The notes beneath the pieces are model-generated. The model saw only the letters and a program-made list of their open reading frames with translations, was not told the DNA's origin and searched no databases. Below are positions 17,745 through 45,626 of a stretch of DNA of 55,066 nt, one piece after another. The stretch's first letter is position 1. Every line of letters begins with the position of its first letter. Both the position numbers and the translations under genes were made by a program. The stretch spans positions 24,904 through 79,969 of the forward strand of contig NW_003135344.1 of NCBI RefSeq assembly GCF_000003605.2. Reading direction: 5' to 3'. Origin of the DNA: Saccoglossus kowalevskii (taxonomy: Eukaryota > Hemichordata > Enteropneusta > Harrimaniidae).

Positions 17745-45626
<27,882 letters not shown>

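Follow-up and report, generated by a model that had tools for sequence, protein, structure and literature searches.

Organization of the locus

The window, that is, the whole stretch of 55,066 nt of Saccoglossus kowalevskii DNA that we analysed, contains exons 2-20 of a receptor guanylate cyclase gene (gene A) and the first exon of a second NPR-like gene (gene B), both on the minus strand. The exons of gene A were rebuilt from open frames and splice signals, and their borders were chosen by eye at AG and GT. The 19 exons obtained in this way (2,567 nt, 854 codons) end in a TAA, and an in-frame TGA interrupts exon 2. The features are:

45568..45570, minus strand: in-frame TGA, the 19th codon in the frame of exons 2-20
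45295..45626, minus strand: exon 2 (332 nt; begins in phase 1 and ends in phase 0), where the ligand-binding domain enters its second half
43804..43939, minus strand: exon 3 (rebuilt model)
41620..41714, minus strand: exon 4 (rebuilt model)
33021..33153, minus strand: exon 5, membrane-proximal ectodomain
29654..29738, minus strand: exon 6, transmembrane segment, assigned from a hydrophobic stretch and from its position in the NPR-A alignment
29147..29270, minus strand: exon 7 (rebuilt model)
26559..26630, minus strand: exon 8 (72 nt, donor GTAATA), the least certain exon
25936..26013, minus strand: exon 9, start of the kinase homology domain
23271..23375, minus strand: exon 10 (rebuilt model)
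21919..22162, minus strand: exon 11, with HGNLKS
21665..21820, minus strand: exon 12 (rebuilt model)
20948..21116, minus strand: exon 13 (rebuilt model)
20670..20819, minus strand: exon 14, stretch preceding the cyclase domain
20417..20540, minus strand: exon 15, cyclase domain, with FSDIVGFT
19926..19994, minus strand: exon 16, cyclase
19379..19553, minus strand: exon 17, cyclase, with VETIGDAYM
18966..19064, minus strand: exon 18, cyclase motif
18554..18645, minus strand: exon 19 (rebuilt model)
17745..17873, minus strand: exon 20, C terminus and TAA
8124..8817, minus strand: exon 1 of gene B, containing a hydrophobic start and the initial portion of the ligand-binding domain (PF01094, E 3.5e-22)

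In gene A the phase is continuous across the introns, there is no frameshift and the TGA is the sole internal stop in exons 2-20. All 18 introns are GT-AG, partly by construction because the borders were chosen by eye at these dinucleotides; independent support for the predicted model comes from the single phase throughout and from the alignment of the joined protein to NPR-A along residues 2-826. The initial annotation had described 18 further exons free of stops and frameshifts, with intact GT-AG sites, and the rebuilt exons 3-20, with phases matching throughout, bear this out. 'Otherwise intact' thus covers exons 2-20, since searches of the window did not reveal exon 1. Exon 8 ranked 6th among the candidates by splice score and was picked on phase and on its fit to NPR sequence; it aligns to NPR-A without gaps. 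Its 72 nt are divisible by three, and its omission would keep the frame.

Several repeats and a gap lie in and around the gene. The intron between exons 4 and 5 measures 8.5 kb, and a run of 324 N (37772-38095) lies between these exons. A minisatellite with a 25-nt unit (27454-28094, 12.6 copies of a 50-nt period) is found between exons 7 and 8. A 134-nt inverted pair (32013-32146 and 46067-46200, 87% complementary) lies with its two arms apart, the first between exons 5 and 6, the second upstream of exon 2, and positions 46133-46206 are also similar to 3581-3654 (76%); the pair is a dispersed repeat, perhaps a small transposon. Downstream of gene A there is a 125-nt direct repeat (14642-14766 and 16405-16529, 84% identical), a 22-nt tandem array occupies the window from its first base (1-248, 11.3 copies), and 32.8 perfect copies of (ATAA)n are present at 53480-53610. 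None of 10 hand-picked longer open frames outside the gene model had a Pfam match at E up to 0.01.

Relationship of gene A to known receptor cyclases

In the gene A protein, Pfam detected the ANF_receptor domain (PF01094, E 5.8e-23), the kinase homology domain (PF07714, E 5.9e-47) and then the cyclase (PF00211, E 3.8e-71, profile positions 1-183 of 183), together with a sub-threshold match to HNOBA. The ANF_receptor match is limited to the second half of the profile (181-352 of 353) because exon 1 was not found. Eight of the nine motifs that we looked up are present, including the cyclase motifs, and the missing one belongs to exon 1. These cyclase motifs are expected to carry the active-site residues, and the earlier statement that every such residue is kept stands as far as the motifs are present. 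In exon 16 (19926-19994, minus strand) the cyclase domain reads DNFHVYK, with His where NPR-A has Asp (DNFDVYK).

Among the best 60 of 258 matches, NPR-A chains (9bcv, 9dzh, 9bcl) scored 1013 bits along residues 2-826 and GC-C came next with 447 bits, and none of these 60 was named GC-D, GC-E, GC-F or GC-G. The original description as an NPR-type guanylate cyclase holds in the sense that 'NPR-type' denotes the predicted architecture and closeness among solved proteins; it is not a clade assignment. According to the excerpted text of PMC1435932, GC-A/GC-B are an innovation of vertebrates and group with two insect clades, and receptor cyclases have undergone lineage-specific expansions.

An in-frame TGA in exon 2

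The TGA (45570-45568, minus strand) lies in the context TTAGCCGCCTCATGACTGGGGATGACG, and the minus strand around it reads TTAGCCGCCTCA TGA CTGGGGATGACG. In the rebuilt frame 18 codons precede it and 835 follow. One frame of exon 2 is open but for the TGA, and the remaining two contain 9 and 6 stops. We compared the 112 residues of exon 2, with X at the TGA, to solved chains at E up to 1. Eight of the 10 chains that matched were natriuretic peptide receptors, with alignments that span the stop: 1jdn, 1yk0 and 1yk1 at E ∼1e-16 over residues 2-97, and five NPR-A chains at E 1e-9 to 3.6e-9 over residues 2-106 (1dp4, 1e-9). The other two were antibody chains (E 0.034 and 0.14). Codon use, trained on exons 3-20, also favoured this frame both before (+0.12) and after (+0.26) the TGA and was negative in the other frames. 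Because NPR homology and codon preference are found on both sides of the stop, the TGA interrupts a genuine coding exon, as the initial annotation had proposed from a frame that reads smoothly on either side.

Which residue relatives carry at this place had been raised as a question, and we answered it on solved chains: the column holds Arg in NPR-C (1jdn), Glu in one NPR-A chain (8tg9) and Asn in another (1dp4). The column is thus variable among the relatives, and no special residue is demanded there.

It had also been suggested that the TGA arose from CGA at a CpG. In the excerpt of PMC10471768, CGA to TGA outpaces all other nonsense changes in human data, which is attributed to CpG methylation. 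The window has 36.5% GC, and CpG is not depleted in it; the observed/expected ratio is 1.18 for the window, 1.21 for introns and 0.93 for coding sequence, the lowest value measured. Absence of CpG depletion is unusual for a CpG-methylated animal genome. Arginine in the gene A coding sequence is encoded by CGA 13 times and by AGA 20 times. The proposed CpG route is weakened by the lack of strong CpG loss in the window and by the column, where Arg is one of three residues; the coding ratio of 0.93 leaves it some room.

Possible routes around the stop

We asked whether the UGA could be read through, so that some ribosomes would decode it and make the full receptor while the rest would release a short ectodomain fragment. 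The initial annotation had pointed to a resemblance with a known readthrough context. In the parts of PMC4132726 and PMC4359377 that bear on this, high readthrough is tied to UGA CUA, at its best with G as the next base, and PMC4359377 gives 2.29% for a UGA CUA G context versus 0.27% for UGA CUU G as a low control; the excerpts give no value for CUG itself. The window has UGA CUG G and not the UGA CUAG motif: the UGA and the next two bases (CU) agree with the CUA motif, whose third base is wrong here. Downstream of the TGA, none of four windows folded beyond its shuffles (z -0.77 to +1.65), and two windows across the TGA also stayed within shuffles (z 0.83 and 1.24). The resemblance is weak: it holds for UGA CU and not for the rest of the context or for a downstream structure. 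Although the column tolerates different residues, which would suit decoding of the stop, the cases presented in the excerpts of the two papers extend a finished protein, whereas the stop in gene A would cut an essential domain. A scan of a prokaryotic contig collection with the part of exon 2 that follows the TGA gave 47 pattern matches and no confirmed locus, as such a collection would lead one to expect. Functional readthrough appears very improbable. Slightly less credence goes to the stronger form of the idea, a UGA kept by selection for regulated readthrough, in which one gene would yield either a short ligand-binding lobe without an anchor or a full receptor producing cGMP.

The stop could also be removed by splicing, recoded by A-to-I editing or decoded as selenocysteine, a group of explanations that we consider the least probable of all. 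Skipping exon 2 (332 nt) would shift the frame. Among the AG sites listed in exon 2, those that could serve as in-frame acceptors beyond the TGA would remove at least 28 residues; use of the nearest would cost the exon its first 28 residues, and 4 of the 20 bases preceding this site are pyrimidines. Escape by splicing was rejected on these grounds. A second exon 2 was likewise rejected: with exon 2 as query, a sensitive tblastn search of 45627-55066 and of the intron separating exons 2 and 3 gave a best E of 1.8. Editing would give Trp, which is absent from the column in the solved relatives matched by exon 2. The best editing duplex within 6 kb on either side scored -39.9 and was outdone by 8 of 20 shuffled queries (range -34.5 to -43.1). 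A search of 9000-17900 against Rfam gave two weak hits at E up to 5, neither of them a SECIS element, and gene A is not classed as a selenoprotein; Rfam at the gathering threshold gave no hits in the whole window. All tests of rescue (readthrough, editing, selenocysteine and splicing) were negative, and none of them is decisive.

Exon 1 and the second NPR-like gene

In the 9,440 nt upstream of exon 2, neither tblastn with exon 1 of gene B (best E 4.5) nor a motif scan of both strands (no match above 45627) revealed exon 1 of gene A. As a control, a clearance-receptor stretch found exon 1 of gene B in the same window at E 1e-19 and nothing else below E 0.79. Gene B begins 8.9 kb downstream of gene A on the same strand, and exon 1 is the one exon of it found in the window. 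The donor of this exon, read by eye, is in phase 1, which is also the acceptor phase of gene A exon 2.

An upstream region that lacks exon 1 where the control detects that of gene B, together with an NPR-like neighbour on the same strand, would be compatible with gene A being a partial tandem duplicate that never had exon 1 and a promoter, a copy that is dead but young and whose first lesion is the TGA. Gene A exon 2 had no match in 1-8121 (searches at E up to 10 and at E up to 1e-3; the first 30 matches listed of a more sensitive search cover gene B exon 1 against 1-8121). Because of this, intron 1 of gene B is probably longer than 8.1 kb, which makes a long intron 1 plausible for gene A as well. 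Gene A already has an 8.5-kb intron between exons 4 and 5, and its first exon could easily lie just beyond the window; we regard a partial duplicate as very unlikely.

Age of the lesion

The number of disabling changes expected in exons 2-20 was modelled with an assumed transition weight of 2, an assumed indel/substitution ratio of 0.05-0.15 and 72 essential splice bases. The model predicts 260-432 disabling changes per unit of neutral divergence. With zero lesions besides the TGA, d would be below about 0.007-0.012 at 95% (median 0.0016-0.0027). Divergence of that size would be in the range of ordinary within-species diversity. Under this model, exons 2-20 would have been constrained until recently, and the bound would fit a segregating allele, a freshly fixed loss and a base error alike. 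The earlier argument that a long-dead gene would show more damage holds and now has a number attached to it. An old pseudogene was ruled against, with one stop, no frameshift and no splice loss in exons 2-20 and a bound on d of ∼0.7-1.2%.

A base-call or consensus error at one position, in a gene A that is otherwise normal, would account for the intact remainder of the 2,567 coding nt, and the 324-N gap shows that the assembly is unfinished at least there. Against such an error, the TGA is outside tandem repeats (the nearest run is a GGGG a few bases 3' of it), and isolated substitution errors are rarer than heterozygous sites in most animal assemblies. We consider an error unlikely, with a better chance than any of the routes around the stop.

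Discussion

The most likely explanation is a recent single-base nonsense change in gene A, either a null allele that segregates in the species and happened to be sampled in the sequenced individual, or a very recent loss of the gene; we put its probability at roughly 0.7. A base error ranks second and recoding is unlikely. Recent null allele, young pseudogene and base error, as first listed, are still the best set of options. A recent nonsense change is favoured because homology lies on both sides of the stop, there is one internal stop in 854 codons, all 18 introns are GT-AG, the column is variable, the recoding tests were negative and no escape by splicing was found.

If the base is correct, as we infer, one base change would have created a nonsense codon in an NPR-type membrane guanylate cyclase gene. 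Translation would then stop in the ligand-binding domain, ahead of the transmembrane segment, the kinase homology domain and the cyclase, and the TGA allele would give no cGMP-producing receptor. Nonsense-mediated decay of the gene A mRNA would be expected. If real, the change marks a hormone-type receptor allele that is null or newly lost, next to at least one NPR-like gene, and it would serve as a natural knockout for studying which functions the duplicate takes over. If not, it is a warning for annotation pipelines, in which gene A would be split or truncated at the TGA. It would be a surprise only if the unlikely case of readthrough were true.

Gene A resembles the NPR guanylate cyclases (GC-A/NPR-A and GC-B/NPR-B) in having the ANF_receptor domain, a single transmembrane segment, the kinase homology domain and the cyclase in the identical order. 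It differs from them in the TGA in exon 2, in an exon 1 that was not found, in its NPR-like tandem neighbour and in His for Asp in DNFxVYK. With the genes that have UGA CUA(G) readthrough (OPRK1, OPRL1, AQP4, MAPK10 and LDHB) it shares UGA followed by CU, whereas it has CUG G for CUA G and its stop lies within an essential domain. Unless transcripts or other individuals say otherwise, the finding is of an ordinary kind: like segregating nonsense alleles and young animal pseudogenes, gene A has one stop in exons 2-20 that are otherwise intact.
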